Shown: positions 14,153 through 50,774 of the stretch, piece by piece
Layout of the letters: each line of letters opens with the position of its first letter
Position numbering within the stretch: position 1 is the stretch's first letter
NCBI RefSeq assembly: GCF_008271365.1
Contig: NZ_CP043430.1
Coordinates: 744,001-808,000 of the forward strand
Direction: 5' to 3'
Length of the DNA: 64,000 nt
From: Microbacterium sp. 1S1
GTDB lineage: Bacteria > Actinomycetota > Actinomycetes > Actinomycetales > Microbacteriaceae
Notes under the pieces: generated by a model
What the model was told of the DNA's origin: nothing
What the model saw: only the letters and a program-made list of their open reading frames with translations
Databases searched by the model: none
Translations under genes and position numbers: made by a program

Positions 14153-14775
14153 TCAGAGCAGTCCGGTGTCGCGGGCGACCGCGACCGCCTTCGCACGGCT
14201 GTCGACCCCGAGCTTCTCGAAGACGTGCACCAGGTGCGTCTTCACGGTCGCCTCGGTGACGAACAGGGCCTTCGCGATCTCCCGGTTCGAGGCTCCGGTG
14301 TCCAGGAGCCGGAGCACGTCGAGCTCGCGTCCCGTGAGCTGCACCCGTGGGGCGCGGAGGGCCCGGCCGACGCGCGCGGTCAGTTCCGGCGTCAGCACCT
14401 GCCCGCCGGATGCGGCCTGGCGGACCGCCCGGACGATGTCCTCCGGGTCGACATCCTTGAGGAGGTAGCCTGCCGCGCCCGCCTCGATCGCGCCGAGGAT
14501 CTGGGCGTCCCGGTCGAACGTCGTGAGGAGGAGAACAGCCGGGGCCGGGTCGAGAGCGCGGAGCGCCGCCGTCGTCTGCACCCCGTCCATGCCCGCCCCC
14601 AGCCGCAGATCGCAGAGGACGACATCGGGGCGGAGATGCCGGGCGAGCGTGACCGCCTCCTCCCCCGACGCCGCCTCCCCACGACCTCCGCGTCGTCGCG
14701 GCGGTCGAAGAGCGAACGGACGCCGGCGCGCACGATCGGGTGGTCGTCGACGAGAAGAACGCGCACGGGAGTCAC
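14153..14775 (-). pseudogene. NarL/FixJ-type response regulator interrupted by a frameshift
   Basis: The receiver domain starts at the GTG at 14775 (VRVLLVDDHPIVRAGVRSLF) and reads well to DDAEVVG. It then jumps frame: the rest of the receiver (PDVVLCDLRLGAGMDG with the phospho-Asp) and the LuxR-type HTH (TGRELDVLRLL, NREIAKALFVTEATVKTHL) lie in another frame to the stop at 14153. The break is at the GGGG run 14677-14680, where one base is missing relative to the expected GTGGGCGAG. Either the regulator is dead or the base was lost in sequencing. The GTG overlaps the kinase stop (GTGA), so the pair was one operon. Confidence 0.8.
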
Positions 14776-46001: not shown

Positions 46002-46443
46002 TGTGTTCCCTTCGATGCGACGGTTCTGAGGCGGACCCCGGCGCGCGCATCCGCGGATGTCGGTGCGGGGGCCGCGGCCGCTCGGCGGCCATCCCCAGAC
46101 AAACAGGAGCCCCCGACATTCGGTCGCTCGACCACGCTATGAGCGGTCTCCACACGGTGCAACACAGCCTGTGGATAACCATGTGGACAGCGTGCGGAGA
46201 ATCTCGGAGTGTCTGTGCAGAACGGGTGTGGATAACCCGGTGGATGGTGTGAGTGGGAGACTTTTTTTATCCTGCTGAGCTGGGATAAGTCGTTTCCCCA
46301 CCCTGTGGATGAAAACGAGTTTAAATTGCGCGTTGAAGGTTTCCCCGTCTGGGGGGACATGTGTAGAACCTGGGGAAAGTCAAGCCGGAAATCCGCCGGG
46401 CGCGTCACGATCTGACACGAGTCGAATCGGATGTAAACGCCCC
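46002..46443. other. Gene-free region upstream of dnaB with DnaA boxes
   Basis: No gene is visible in this 440-nt stretch. It is more AT-rich than its surroundings and holds two exact DnaA boxes, TGTGGATAA (46170-46178 and 46227-46235), and one with one mismatch, TGTGGATGA (46304-46312). It also has a T7 run (46262-46268) next to the inverted repeat TTATCC-N10-GGATAA (about 46266-46287). It probably contains the dnaB promoter. Confidence 0.65.
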
Positions 46444-46472
46444 TGGACAGAGCCGAGGTCGACGAGTATTCT
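46444..46472 (+). promoter_or_regulatory. Promoter for the exported Val-rich protein
   Basis: TGGACA (46444-46449) and TATTCT (46467-46472) are separated by exactly 17 nt, a good sigma-70-type pair. The start codon at 46531 lies about 52 nt after the expected transcript start and is preceded by GGGGGAGGA. Confidence 0.6.
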
Positions 46473-46530
46473 GCCTCCCATCGACACACCCGTGACGACT
46501 GGACGTTGACCTTCAGAGGGGGAGGACGAC

Positions 46531-47595
46531 GTGGACGCTCGGACCACCCGACGCGGCGTACCCGCCGTGGTCCTCTGGGGTGGCTTCGGCGCGCTCGCCT
46601 GGGCGGCACTCACGGTGCTCACCGGCGGCGGATCCGCGCAGGCCGATGAGCAGCCCCAGGGCCAGCTCGACAGCCTCACCTCGGTGGTGTCCGAGACGGT
46701 CACGGCGGTGACGAAACCGGTCGTGAACGACGTCGTGGCTCCTGTTGTGAACCATGTAGCGACGCCGGTGGTCCAGGAGGTCGTCGCGCCCGTCGTGCAG
46801 GAGGTAGTGAAACCGGTCGTGACTCACGTCACCGCTCCGGTGCAGCAGGCCGCTCCCGAGGTCGTTGAGACAGTGACCGAGACCGTGACGCAGGTCCCGA
46901 TCGTCGGAGACACCGCCGCCCCCGTGCTCGAGACCGTCGCGGAGACCACGGAGACGGTCGTCGAACCCGTCACCGACGTGCTCGTCTCTGCCCCGGCCTC
47001 ACAGATCACCGCGCCCGTGCTCGACCTCGTCGGCGACCTTCCGCTGGTCGGCGGCATCGTCGTCGACTCGGGCGCCATCGAGCTCGTCGAGAACGTCGTC
47101 GGCGTCGTCGACGACACGACCGGCCTCGTCGGCGGCGTTGCGGAAGAGGCCGTCCCGCCCGTCGTCGAGGCGCTCACGCCGCAGGTCCCGGTCGCACCGC
47201 AGACGCCGGTGGACGCCGTCCCTGCGAGCACCGTGACCCCGCGTGCGGACTTCACCATCGTGCCGCCGGCGCTCACCTCCCCGCGCTCTGCGTCTCCCTT
47301 GGCGGGCCACGAGTCTGCGCTGTGGGCTGGCTCTCCGGTCAGGGCGACCCTCTCCGCGACGGACACGCAGAGCCCCGTTGGTGACACCGCTCCGGCGCCG
47401 TTCGGCGCCCCTCCGGGCGCCCCCGTCGCCCCCGCTTCTTCTTCCGCCGCATCCGGCGGAACCTCCGCCAGCGCCCACGCTCGCGTGAGCGAGATCGGCG
47501 CCACCCCGCTCCGTGCCTGGGAGCGGGCCGTCGGCGCGACGGACGACGCCCTTCCAGGCGCTCCCGTCGCTGACACCGACGTCTCTCCCGACTGA
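46531..47595 (+). CDS. Exported valine-rich repeat protein
   Basis: A 354-residue protein with a signal peptide (PAVVLWGGFGALAWAALTVL, probable cleavage SAQA/DE near residue 39). Residues 62-102 hold five octapeptide units of the type APVVQEVV. A Val/Thr-rich middle and a long Pro/Ala/Ser-rich, probably disordered C-terminus follow. No membrane anchor or sorting motif is seen at the end, so it is secreted or loosely bound. It is followed after 102 nt by the chaplin-like gene on the same strand, suggesting a shared surface role. Not recognised as a known family. Confidence 0.75.
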   Translation: MDARTTRRGVPAVVLWGGFGALAWAALTVLTGGGSAQADEQPQGQLDSLTSVVSETVTAVTKPVVNDVVAPVVNHVATPVVQEVVAPVVQEVVKPVVTHVTAPVQQAAPEVVETVTETVTQVPIVGDTAAPVLETVAETTETVVEPVTDVLVSAPASQITAPVLDLVGDLPLVGGIVVDSGAIELVENVVGVVDDTTGLVGGVAEEAVPPVVEALTPQVPVAPQTPVDAVPASTVTPRADFTIVPPALTSPRSASPLAGHESALWAGSPVRATLSATDTQSPVGDTAPAPFGAPPGAPVAPASSSAASGGTSASAHARVSEIGATPLRAWERAVGATDDALPGAPVADTDVSPD

Positions 47596-47697
47596 CGGCC
47601 TGTCGCGTCATCCCACCCGGGTGACAGATGCCGTGCTGCGCGCGCACTCTCTCGCGCGCATCCCATCAGACAGACCAGTCACGTCAGGAGAACCATC

Positions 47698-49580
47698 ATG
47701 CGTAGTTACGCGAAGCGCGTCCTCTGGGGCACGCTCATCGCCGGCGGGATCACCCTGCTCGGCGCGACGGCCGCCAATGCGGCCGAGACATCCGGAGACG
47801 ACGGACTCCTCTCCGGAACCCAGGCCGTAGCGCCGATCACCGCTCCGATCACGGTCGTCGACAACGCGATCTCCGTGCTCGGTGACGCGGCGTCGACTTC
47901 ACCGGCACCTGCTCCCGCCCCGGCACCAGCCCCAGCCCCGGCTCCCGCCCCTGCACCGGCCCCGGCACCTGCTCCGCAGACGAGCGGTGACCAGGGAACC
48001 GCCTCCGGCACGCAGGCGGCCGTCGCGGTGAACCTTCCCGTCACGGTGACGGACAACGCCATCAGCCTCACCGAAGACTCCACGACCAGCACCCCGGCCG
48101 CCGCTCCTCCCCAGAGCGCGGCTCCCCAGGCCCCTGACGCGGCCGGGGTGCTTTCCCTCGACACGGACGGCCTGGAGGGCGTGCTTTCGGGCACCCAGGC
48201 TCTGGTGGCGGTCACCGCCCCGGTGACCGTGTCCGACAACGCCATCTCGCTGCTCGGTGACTCCGAGTCGGCCGCCGAAGGTGGGAGCGCCGCAGCACCG
48301 GCCCCTGCTCCGGCGACCGGGTCGAGCACTTCGGGCGAGGACGGCACGGCCAGCGGCACCCAGGTGGTCGCCCCGGTGACCGCCCCGGTCACCGTCGGCG
48401 GCAACGCCATCTCGCTCCTGGGCGACAGCGAGGCCACCGGCAGCACCGGCGGCACCACACCGGCACCGGCAGCACCCGCGACCGGGTCGAGCACTTCCGG
48501 CGAGGACGGCACGGCCAGCGGCACCCAGGTCGTCGCCCCGGTGACGGCCCCCGTGACCGCCAGCGGCAACGCCATCTCCCTCCTGGGCGACAGCGAGGCC
48601 ACCGGCACCACCGGCAGCACCACCACCCCTGTCGCACCCGCGGCCGGCGGCAGCACCACCGGCGGTGACGACAGCATCCTCGGCGGTTCGCAGGTCGTCG
48701 CACCCGTGGCGGCTCCGGTGACCGTCGGCGGCAACGCCATCTCCCTCCTGGGCGACAGCGAGGCCACCGGTACCACCGGCACCACCACACCGGCGCCCGC
48801 CCCCCCCGCGGCGGGCGGCAGCCCTCGGGCGAGGACGGCACGGCCAGCGGCACGCAGGTCGTCGCACCCGTGACGGCCCCCGTGACCGTCGGCGGCAACG
48901 CCATCTCCGTCACCGACGACGCGACCGTCACCGGCACCACCGGCGGCACCACCGCCCCGACCGCACCCACGACCGGAGGCAGCACCACCGGCGGAGACAA
49001 CAGCACCCTCGGCGGCACCCAGGTGGTCGCACCCGTGACGGCCCCCATCGGCGTCACCGGCAACGCCATCTCCGTCACCGACGACGCCACCGTCACCGGC
49101 ACCACCGGCGGCGCCACGTCCCCGACCGCACCCACGACCGGAGGCAGCACCACCGGCGGAGACGACAGCATCCTCGGCGGGACTCAGCTGGAACTCCCGG
49201 TGACGCTTCCCATCACGATCGGCGGGAACGCGATCTCCGTCGTCGGCGAGAGCACGGTGACCGATCCGGGCACGAACCCCGGCACTGACCCCGGTACGGA
49301 TCCGGGCACCGACCCGGGAACGGACCCCGGCACCGACCCCGGAACGAACCCGGGGACCGACCCTGGCACGAACCCGGGCACCGCCCCCGGAACGAACCCG
49401 GGAACCACTCCGAGCACCGGAGCCGGCATGACAAGCATGCCGTGGGCTGCGGGTGCCGCCGCGACGGGTGAGGCCACCGGCCTCGCGATGACCGGTGGTG
49501 CCTCGGCCCCGTGGCTGTGGGCCCTGGCCGCTCTCCTGCTGCTGGGAGGTGCGGGCCTGCTGCGCCGTCGCGCGGCGTAG
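47698..49580 (+). CDS. Chaplin-like, LAMTG-anchored surface protein (one frameshift)
   Basis: Reading across one frameshift gives about 627 residues: signal peptide (RVLWGTLIAGGITLLGATAA, cleavage ANA/AE near 29), nine repeats of about 40 residues, a PGTN/PGTD tetrapeptide tract, and the sorting end LAMTG-GASAPW, hydrophobic helix, RRRAA. Each repeat fits SG-x5-PV-x2-PV-x-V-x-GN-x-I-x3-G, the spacing of the Streptomyces chaplin domain, but the chaplin cysteines are absent. LAxTG is the class E sortase signal used by long chaplins. The frame breaks at about 48822, where one base is missing in repeat 7; without repair the protein ends at 48873, unanchored. AGGAGAACC precedes the ATG. Confidence 0.75.
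47788..49262 (+). repeat. Nine tandem chaplin-like coding repeats
   Basis: Units of about 120-190 nt including variable linkers. The core protein pattern is SGTQVVAPVTAPVTVGGNAI. Units 4 and 5 are nearly identical in DNA and units 7-8 closely related, which points to recent duplication; units 1-3 have diverged and have longer Pro/Ala linkers. Confidence 0.75.
49263..49412 (+). repeat. 12-nt tandem repeats encoding PGTD/PGTN
   Basis: About twelve units of a 12-nt motif code for DPGT, NPGT and related tetrapeptides. This forms the flexible wall-spanning stalk between the chaplin-like repeats and the LAMTG anchor. Tracts of this kind often vary in copy number between strains. Confidence 0.75.
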
Positions 49581-49710
49581 GCGCTGAGCCCCGGCGGTGG
49601 CGATGTCCTCGGGGGAGGAGACGCGCCACCGCCGGCGCGCGGCAGCGCCCGCACGTGCGGTGCAGCCCTCGCTGCGCTTCCTCTGCCGAGCGTGACCGCC
49701 GCGCAAACGG

Positions 49711-49745
49711 CGGATGCCCCGTGGTCCCCCACCGCGGGGCATCCG
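49711..49745. terminator. Strong hairpin between the chaplin-like gene and the cupin gene
   Basis: CGGATGCCCCG (49711-49721) pairs with 49735-49745, and GGT with ACC inside, giving 15 pairs with one G-T around CCCCC. It lies in the 200-nt convergent gap, which holds no gene, and should end transcription from both sides. Confidence 0.75.
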
Positions 49746-49782
49746 TGCGCCCGTTCTGCGGACGCATTGGACGTGATGGGGC

Positions 49783-50148
49783 TTAGCCGAGCTCCTGGAG
49801 CTCCGCCGTCATGTCGCCGCCCGCGTCTCCGGTGTTGACCGTACCCTTCGGTTCGAAGAGGATCGCCTGCACCTCTTCCTCGGCTTTCGGGCAGTGTTCG
49901 ACGCCCCGAGGCACCACGAACACGTCGTTCGGATTCAGGATGACGTCGCGGTCGCGGAGCTGGATCGTCAGGCGTCCGCTCACCACGAAGAACAGCTCGT
50001 CGGTCTCGGGATGCGTGTGCCAGACGAACTCGCCCTGCAACTTCACCACCTTGACGTCGTAGTCGTTGACGCTCGTGAGCCGGTGTGGCTGCCAGTGCTC
50101 GTGAATCGTGGAAAGGGCCTCGTGCACATTGCGAACGTCATCCGTCAT
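49783..50148 (-). CDS. Small cupin-domain protein
   Basis: A 121-residue single cupin. Metal ligands are in FVWHTHPETDELFFVVSG (His, His, Glu) and RGVEHCP (His). The N-terminus (HEALSTIHEHWQPHRL) matches a widespread family of small cytoplasmic cupins without assigned substrate. It is convergent with the chaplin-like gene and lies downstream of gene remnants. Confidence 0.82.
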   Translation of the reverse strand: MTDDVRNVHEALSTIHEHWQPHRLTSVNDYDVKVVKLQGEFVWHTHPETDELFFVVSGRLTIQLRDRDVILNPNDVFVVPRGVEHCPKAEEEVQAILFEPKGTVNTGDAGGDMTAELQELG

Positions 50149-50158
50149 GGCCAGCAGC

Positions 50159-50395
50159 CTATCCGCCCGGGGCGATCGATCCGTCAGCGTCGATGACGGC
50201 GGCAGTGCCCGGGAAGTCCCGCCGCCCGCGCTCGCCCATCAGGGCGGACGCCCGACCGGACGGATCGGGTGAAGGGGCGCCGCCTTCGGCATCGAAGCGA
50301 ATGGACCGGACTTCTCCGCCGAGGAAGGCGCCGTCCGCACGGAGACGGACCGACAGGTAGGCGCCGAAGCGCGTCTCCTCCTCCGCCTCGAAGAC
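50159..50395 (-). pseudogene. C-terminal remnant, possibly of a CapA-type enzyme
   Basis: In the frame ending with TAG at 50159-50161 the last 78 codons read like a real protein end: ETRFGAYLSVRLRADGAFLG, then IRFDAEGGAPSPDPSGRASA and RRDFPGTAAVIDADG. The style resembles the C-terminus of CapA-like metallophosphatases, but this is from memory and weak. No start or upstream domain exists; the frame joins abruptly to an acyltransferase fragment in another frame, so it is a decayed gene end. Confidence 0.4.
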
Positions 50396-50693
50396 ACAGC
50401 AGATACAGGTAGAGGAACCGGACGACGCGCGGACGGAACACCACGGCCCACGGTCGGGCCAGCGCCGCGGAGGCGAAATATCCGGACAGGAACAGGAACA
50501 ACGGCATGAGGAACGGCCAGATGAGGTCGCTCGCGAGGTCCCAGGCTCCGGGGAGGGGGATGCCGAGTCGCCAGTCGGCCTTCAGGTAGGTCTTCAGCAC
50601 GACGTGCCAGAACACCACGAGGACGATCAGCAGCCCCTTCGCGGCATCACCCCAGGGCGCTCTGGATGTCGGGAACGGGGGTGGTGCCGCCAT
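50396..50693 (-). pseudogene. N-terminal remnant of an acyltransferase-3 family membrane protein
   Basis: From ATG 50693 the frame gives about 100 residues typical of the first three helices of OafA-type acyltransferases: GDAAKGLLIVLVVFWHVVLK with the conserved His, PFLMPLFLFLSGYFASAALA and RFLYLYLL. It then runs into Arg-rich nonsense where the other remnant begins. The rest of the roughly 350-residue enzyme is missing. A deletion fused two genes on the same strand. Confidence 0.6.
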
Positions 50694-50774
50694 GGAATCG
50701 AGCCAACAGCACCGCATGTTGCGTCGGCGTATGAGAAATCACCGTCGCCTGATCCTCACCGCGTCCTGACGCAG

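Follow-up and report, generated by a model that had tools for sequence, protein, structure and literature searches.

A conserved gene pair of Microbacterium sp. 1S1 predicted to encode a wall-anchored, multi-unit relative of the long chaplins and a secreted partner

In a stretch of 64,000 nucleotides (nt) of Microbacterium sp. 1S1 (contig NZ_CP043430.1; "the window", in which all coordinates are positions), a gene for a repeat protein at 47,698–49,580 on the plus strand was analyzed. It is half of a conserved two-gene pair, the other half being an upstream gene for a putative secreted partner protein, and, judged from profile comparisons, its repeats are related to chaplins. On balance, the locus probably codes for a wall-anchored, multi-unit relative of the long chaplins. 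Its units would assemble with each other and form a layer that is rich in beta structure and moderately hydrophobic, and the partner would help. No single open frame of the sequenced copy holds the nine repeats together with the anchor, and an anchored nine-repeat protein needs a frame change. The copy in the 1S1 genome may be broken or mis-sequenced; the conclusions about the family rest on its homologues. The pair points to a little-studied surface-coat system.

The repeat gene and the kinship of its units to chaplins

The region codes for a signal peptide, nine repeats with their linkers, a PGTD/PGTN stalk and a LAMTG sorting signal. The first reading-frame piece (47698–48873, plus strand, like all features of the pair) starts with an ATG at 47698, which is preceded by the ribosome-binding-site-like sequence AGGAGAA (47686–47692). 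It comprises the signal peptide MRSYAKRVLWGTLIAGGITLLGATAANAA (47698–47784; the N-terminus is conserved in an alignment of relatives, termed A1, and the cleavage site is a predicted one), repeats 1–6, and, past ...PAAGGS, out-of-frame residues up to a stop codon. The second piece (48825–49580) contains repeats 7–9, the stalk, the anchor and a stop codon. The repeats are about 38 residues long, and the nine copies span 47,788–49,265. All nine were recovered, with 41.0–69.4 bits each, by a unit profile for which 78 seed units of the repeat family, the window's own among them, had served as input: repeat 1 (47788–47901) with 59.6 bits, repeat 2 (47980–48093) with 41.0, repeat 3 (48163–48276) with 56.4, repeat 4 (48328–48441) with 69.4, repeat 5 (48493–48606) with 65.4, repeat 6 (48658–48771) with 65.7, repeat 7 (48825–48935) with 55.6, repeat 8 (48987–49100) with 48.7, and repeat 9 (49152–49265) with 62.3. 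The stalk (about 49260–49406) was detected as a tandem array with Tandem Repeats Finder. The LAMTG motif (49482–49496, CTC GCG ATG ACC GGT) forms, with a hydrophobic stretch and an RRR tail, the sorting region 49482–49577, on which the NCBIfam LAVTG anchor domain scored 23.4 bits, under its cut-off of 27.

A preliminary description of this DNA had announced nine cysteine-free, chaplin-like repeats on a sortase-anchored stalk. The nine repeats, the stalk and the signal were all found, and neither piece encodes any cysteine, but six of the repeats lie in one frame and three in another. The spacing proposed for the repeats (SG-x5-PV-x2-PV-x-V-x-GN-x-I-x3-G) did not hold: only one of the nine fits it, even when x5 or x6 is allowed, and it takes a looser pattern to recover them all. 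That description had also overlooked two features, the break in the reading frame and the conserved gene for the partner.

The relation to chaplins that it had proposed was borne out by several comparisons, the first of which was the profile search against the ChpA-C family that it had suggested. The Pfam family PF03777 (ChpA-C), which has a curated cut-off of 21 bits, matched the first piece with 59.5 bits in six stretches and the second with 25.3 bits in three stretches. All 17 congeners of alignment A1 matched PF03777 at E<=0.001, and matches were absent from all of 14 control genomes. For a profile-profile comparison, 200 of 584 family units were set against 23 chaplin domains, which were chosen by a GN-based pattern from 24 Streptomyces-type loci (one genus, presumably Streptomyces, with 6–15 strong matches per genome). 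The unit aligned with these domains over 30 gapless columns with a probability of 96.1, a score of 41.4 and an E-value of 3.6e-9. The controls stayed far below: 100 column shuffles reached at most a score of 16.2 and a probability of 7.4, and the reversed profile 20.4 and 32.9, respectively. A profile made from chaplins only matched all 82 family entries (the two window pieces and 80 named homologous loci), with E<=1e-5 for 81 of them. It gave the window pieces 62.0 and 32.0 bits, while 410 shuffled proteins peaked at 8.6 bits. Because the Pfam scores exceed the curated cut-off and the shuffled proteins do not exceed 8.6 bits, chance was excluded as an explanation. In the opposite direction, 15 of 16 Streptomyces-type stretches had a unit that the family unit profile could detect.

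Among the 584 family units, which have a median pitch of 55 amino acids (aa), T1, G3, G10, Q12 and P21 are nearly invariant. They retain the chaplin core, namely the first turn, P[VI]..P[VI], GN and [IV].[VI].G. A chaplin domain has been described as carrying three GN motifs 12–13 residues apart (PMC13251363). In the family the second of these is retained (G in 89% and N in 88% of 583 aligned units), the first position is mostly GTQ (T 80%, N 5%), and the third lies in a segment that has been lost. In some congeners the first turn reads GGNQ, which is nearer to the SGN of chaplins.

The preliminary description had emphasized the missing cysteines. Their loss is indeed complete in the family units examined (0 of 584), whereas all 23 pattern-selected Streptomyces-type domains have two. 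However, ChpE lacks both cysteines and still forms fibrils (PMC3079736), and the second domain of ChpB is devoid of both as well (PMC13251363). According to the former source, reduced chaplins make fibrils in vitro, so that the cysteines are dispensable there, while their removal from ChpH severely compromised aerial hyphae. Cysteine-free short chaplin ORFs (open reading frames) were also present in three of the 16 Streptomyces-type stretches (L223, L229 and L235). Missing cysteines alone thus do not set the repeat protein apart, given that ChpE and one ChpB domain share this feature.

The partner gene and the distribution of the pair

The partner gene (46531–47595) encodes a protein of 354 aa with a signal peptide, V/P-rich predicted helices and a disordered remainder that ends in TDVSPD. 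No Pfam or NCBIfam family, rodlin included, matched it above cut-off, and in its own genome the partner profile matched 46531–47595 only. To survey the relatives, a tail-free profile was used, from which the last 40 alignment columns had been removed, with a threshold of E<=1e-8. The survey comprised 101 stretches, i.e., the 80 named loci (L071–L150), 20 further stretches chosen by a match to either profile (L200–L219), and the window. The partner was detected in 92 of them, 75 of which have the repeat ORF starting directly downstream. The other 17 consist of five stretches cut by a contig end (L083, L115, L126, L132 and L136), five in which the repeat ORF had been called from a different start (L090, L098, L122, L138 and L212), and seven without an ORF bearing recognizable units (L200, L201, L203, L204, L205, L207 and L208). 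The distance between partner and repeat gene, measurable for 71 of the 80 named loci, was 78–134 nt, with a median of 101 nt.

The C-terminus of the partner is nearly fixed. The last two residues of all 92 proteins are P-[DAG], with TDVSPD as the tail in 61 and IPVSPA in five. Of the 3104 other open frames in the same stretches, genuine and spurious ones alike, 106 share a P-[DAG] end. Four further partners (L209, L210, L213 and L215) were detected with the full profile only; their tails also are P-[DAG], but this profile contains the tail. A strongly hydrophobic stretch near the C-terminus was found in ten of 78 partners of a tail-selected set, and not in the partner of the window. An AlphaFold2 model of the latter has helices at residues 46–207 and a disordered remainder, with a mean pLDDT (predicted local distance difference test score) of 59.4 and a pTM (predicted template modelling score) of 0.33. 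The helix blocks have pLDDT values of 55–79, and residues 81–200 values of 69–79. In L088 and L130 two tandem partner-like genes are present, which end in TDVSPD and SDVSPD, and the upstream copy differs in its middle part.

A sigma-70-like promoter match (46444–46472, 9 of 12 positions) lies 58 nt before the partner gene. Though a consensus match only, it was the sole one in a scan of 46300–49850, in which shuffled sequences gave a mean of 0.0. The same scan revealed neither a promoter-like match in the gap before the repeat gene nor a terminator-like site in the region. Because the only promoter-like match precedes the partner gene and no terminator-like site was found, co-transcription of the two genes is plausible.

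At E<=0.001 the partner was matched in 17 of 149 genomes of the order. Outside the order the matches were weak: besides the own genome, three of 149 genomes of the phylum had one at E<=1e-5, all with 26.8–29.2 bits. In 16 stretches with Streptomyces-type chaplins that were searched, the partner gave no match. The partners of L203 and L204 end in IPVSPA, and the protein encoded downstream has a signal peptide and an LPxTG end. Because of these downstream genes, the clients of the partner may include anchored proteins other than the repeat protein.

The named loci are the best 80 of 314 relatives that were obtained in a profile scan of genome contigs with alignment A1. By name, 70 belong to Microbacterium, five to Agromyces and one to Janibacter, three to Actinomycetes or Actinomycetales without a genus, and one to a metagenome-assembled genome titled Fulvimarina, which is probably misbinned. 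PF03777 matches at E<=0.001 were present in 22 of 58 genomes, with the own genome counted, and the listed matches of each genome fall in one locus; in the phylum, 15 of 396 genomes had a match. Alignment A1 found matches at E<=0.001 in 114 of 297 genomes of the order, many of which cover the stalk and anchor columns only. A best E-value of <=1e-20 was reached in 38 of the 297, in two of them (G540 and G685) mostly at the stalk end. Within the genus the chromosomal place is constant, with the repeat gene lying between dnaB and rplI in 16 of 18 same-genus stretches. The other two carry dnaB, one of them at a contig end (L027) and the other (L040) without rplI in the stretch; two stretches from other families have neither gene. 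The number of repeats was counted in 69 named homologues with LxxTG near the end, with the 3′ fragment L133 excluded. Five repeats were present in two proteins, six in ten, seven in 32, eight in 13, nine in nine, ten in two and eleven in one. The nine repeats of the window are on the high side of the family range and are not special.

The frame change between repeats 6 and 7

Repeats 1–6 lie in the ORF 47698–48873, and repeats 7–9 and the anchor lie in the next frame (48825–49580). A one-base frame shift occurs in the spacer past repeat 6, between the codons read ...PAAGGS and SGED.... This spacer reads TTGTTTPAPAPPAAGGS in the first frame, similar to the spacer after repeat 5 (TTGSTTTPVAPAAGGST), and SGEDGTA continues in the second frame; therefore the change was placed at about 48,820–48,826. 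As read, the copy would yield a six-repeat protein without an anchor. The only run of at least eight identical bases in the window is a C8 tract at 48800–48807. The spacer past this tract is still in the family-typical frame, and phase variation via the tract was thus rejected as unsupported.

The open frame closes with an anchor motif in 70 of the 80 named loci, among which the 3′ fragment L133 is counted. In the remaining ten, five frames reach the contig end and five hit a stop codon without an anchor. The latter comprise L097, L103, L117 and L143, in which the anchor follows the stop in another frame, and L101, in which the frame enters a masked stretch. The window is not alone in its frame change, as four named homologues shift frame as well.

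It is quite possible, though less than probable, that the frame change is genuine and that 1S1 carries a pseudogene, or else a form of the gene that is switched off or lacks the anchor. The one-base change between repeats 6 and 7 would fit this explanation, as would the five of 80 homologues that stop without an anchor, four of them with the anchor in another frame, which indicate that frame changes recur in this gene; a neighboring acyltransferase/PGA_cap-type gene, moreover, has shrunk to a remnant. However, both pieces have retained family-typical residues up to the junction, a repetitive gene rich in GC would look no different if its consensus contained errors, and a response-regulator gene of the window is likewise split. 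Slippage at the C8 tract is unsupported, since the junction lies away from it. The four further frame changes did not alter the odds, because they fit a consensus error and a real loss alike.

The whole window was also compared with two relatives, which yielded 8 and 4 split queries. These counts are noisy, with antisense open frames included, and the control comparisons gave 7, 4 and 3; therefore the number of splits says nothing about error versus loss. Two of the longer split queries, for which Pfam gave no match, are possibly not genes. The response-regulator gene (14156–14775, minus strand) is split over two frames in the window, and its counterpart in the relative G029 has receiver and LuxR-type domains; the split may be genuine or may be another error of the consensus. 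The remnant at 50174–50696 (minus strand) belongs to an acyltransferase/PGA_cap-type gene that is of full length (743 aa) in G029. Only pieces matching its two ends have been kept, and they are in different frames.

Proposed role and comparison with known systems

Two genes with sortase domains are present in the own genome. One encodes a class E sortase (L043; 235.8 bits, cut-off 160), a gene for which the preliminary description had proposed a search. The other, L044 (G000:C1:530819-531241), is class F-like, with 108.9 bits versus a cut-off of 166. Its neighbors are a putative gene for a DUF4397-like secreted protein on one side and a putative ECF-sigma-like/anti-sigma-like pair (ECF, extracytoplasmic function) on the other. 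Long chaplins of Streptomyces are substrates of class E sortases. For ChpC, sortase coupling has been reported (PMC5618241). The LAMTG signal would here be used by the class E sortase, and the repeat protein is predicted to be anchored to the wall.

An AlphaFold2 model of repeats 7–9 contains four short strands per repeat (mean pLDDT 69.7, pTM 0.48), which suggests a beta structure of the units. Sequence matches of the second piece in the PDB lay in the stalk, to circumsporozoite repeats and to one ARID-domain chain, and were discarded. The mean GRAVY (grand average of hydropathy) value was 0.93 for the unit core, 0.84 for the cores of Streptomyces-type chaplins and -0.14 for the linkers.

In the proposed mechanism, one secreted chain would string nine cysteine-free strand/turn/strand units on flexible, T/G/P/A-rich linkers. 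The PGT(D/N) stalk would lift the units off the wall, and the class E sortase would link LAMTG to peptidoglycan. The units could then assemble within and between neighboring anchored chains. The result would be a beta-rich and probably amyloid-like layer with effects on wetting, attachment or contact between cells. The secreted helical partner, probably encoded on the same transcript, would help in the export, folding or assembly of the anchored protein. The assembly, the hydrophobic or adhesive function and the role of the partner are all suggested rather than observed. Short chaplins matter most for surface activity in Streptomyces. In the own genome both PF03777 matches at E<=0.001 and all five matches of a three-repeat profile at E<=1 lie in the repeat gene, and no other chaplin-domain gene was found (a whole-protein profile gave a third match, the place of which is not listed). 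Because the genome revealed no short chaplin gene, self-assembly of the units seems most likely.

Several points weigh against this proposal. Single repeats scored only 21–31 bits, versus up to 105 bits for Streptomyces-type domains, and therefore the distance from these chaplins is real. The units lack the third turn and the C-terminal segment of chaplins, a length of about 13 residues that includes the third GN and the second cysteine. Only 19 of 34 same-genus relatives have a PF03777 match at E<=0.001, and 15 are without one at that threshold. The lack of short chaplin genes in the own genome is itself a difficulty, though a very divergent one could escape detection. The confidence of the structural model is moderate, and a Foldseek search against the PDB gave no significant match (the best was FapC, with an E-value of 0.13 and a probability of 0.15). 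With linkers that are long and lack hydrophobicity, a continuous fiber is not obvious. The partners of L203 and L204 precede anchored proteins without recognizable chaplin units. Lastly, the frame break may make the copy of the window non-functional, and four of 80 named homologues also shift frame ahead of the anchor.

The main rival is a non-assembling adhesin or spacer with units like beads on a string, which would fold independently and either serve to bind a ligand or simply make the protein longer; it would truly descend from chaplins but have lost their amyloid behavior. The long, hydrophilic linkers, the lost C-terminal part and cysteines of the chaplin domain, the variation of the repeat number from 5 to 11, and the modelled strands, which lie inside each repeat, are in accord with such a protein. 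It is nevertheless regarded as unlikely, since what has been retained is the hydrophobic core, equal to that of chaplins in hydrophobicity, cysteines are dispensable for chaplin fibrils in vitro (PMC3079736), and no other domain was found above Pfam cut-off. Convergence of low-complexity sequence, to which the share of A, T, G and P in the mature region (together about 61%) and the low scores of single repeats might point, is very improbable in view of the profile-profile and shuffled-protein controls and of the absence of PF03777 from the control genomes.

It is tempting to speculate, albeit with considerable doubt, that the pair is a coat module of non-filamentous Micrococcales. In it, chaplin units would come pre-linked in one anchored chain, which would make short chaplins unnecessary, and the near-fixed tail of the dedicated partner (mostly TDVSPD or IPVSPA) would be a recognition signal for export or assembly of that chain. 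The module would then be an ancestral or parallel counterpart of the Streptomyces sheath, serving attachment or wetting instead of aerial growth, and its anchored form might even be turned off by the frame changes that recur in the repeat gene. Chaplins have been described from filamentous bacteria that sporulate, in which they belong to the aerial coat; their expression is tied to aerial growth through BldN. Microbacterium is unicellular and is not known to sporulate or to form aerial hyphae. A multi-unit chaplin-type chain at one chromosomal place in this genus would thus allow the role of the units to be probed before or apart from aerial growth, and the conserved partner with its near-fixed tail is a concrete handle for genetics. 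Attachment was proposed as an earlier role of chaplins in a 2013 review (PMC4255298), and another source concerns Streptomyces chaplins in soil (PMC12143472). Among the papers listed in full-text searches, which did not extend to preprints and most subscription journals, none was seen that describes a Microbacterium chaplin, the architecture with 5–11 units or the partner.

Among the known systems, curli CsgA and FapC are made of imperfect tandem repeats with conserved Q, N and G and are not known to be sortase-anchored. FapC was the best, though not significant, fold match, and no sequence relation was seen. CwpA and CwpB of Actinoplanes missouriensis are hydrophobic, SrtE-anchored proteins outside Streptomyces with modelled beta-sheet clusters and disordered stretches; they differ in that they have no chaplin domains according to the authors, and the available part of that source does not mention a repeat array (PMC13251363). 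Chaplin-like sequence outside sporulating bacteria is already known from a protein of Arthrobacter chlorophenolicus, a non-sporulating relative, for which neither a number of repeats nor a partner gene or function is mentioned (PMC4255298). ChpE and the second domain of ChpB have cysteine-free chaplin domains in common with the family (PMC3079736; PMC13251363), but ChpE is a short single-domain protein that has retained the C-terminal segment. The closest counterparts are the long chaplins ChpA-C of Streptomyces. They differ in having two units per chain, versus 5–11 here, and the units here end about 13 residues sooner and lack cysteines. In addition, no short chaplins were found in the own genome, the repeat gene lies between dnaB and rplI in the genus, and it has a partner gene, while no partner was seen beside the chaplins of 16 Streptomyces-type stretches. 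The signal peptide and the sortase signal of a long chaplin are both read from the sequence, but in different frames in the copy of the window. Shared with ChpA-C are this arrangement of a signal peptide, chaplin-type units and a C-terminal sortase signal, the hydrophobic core of the units, and the core spacing G-x(6)-G-x(10)-P-x(4)-GN-x-[IV]-x(3)-G.

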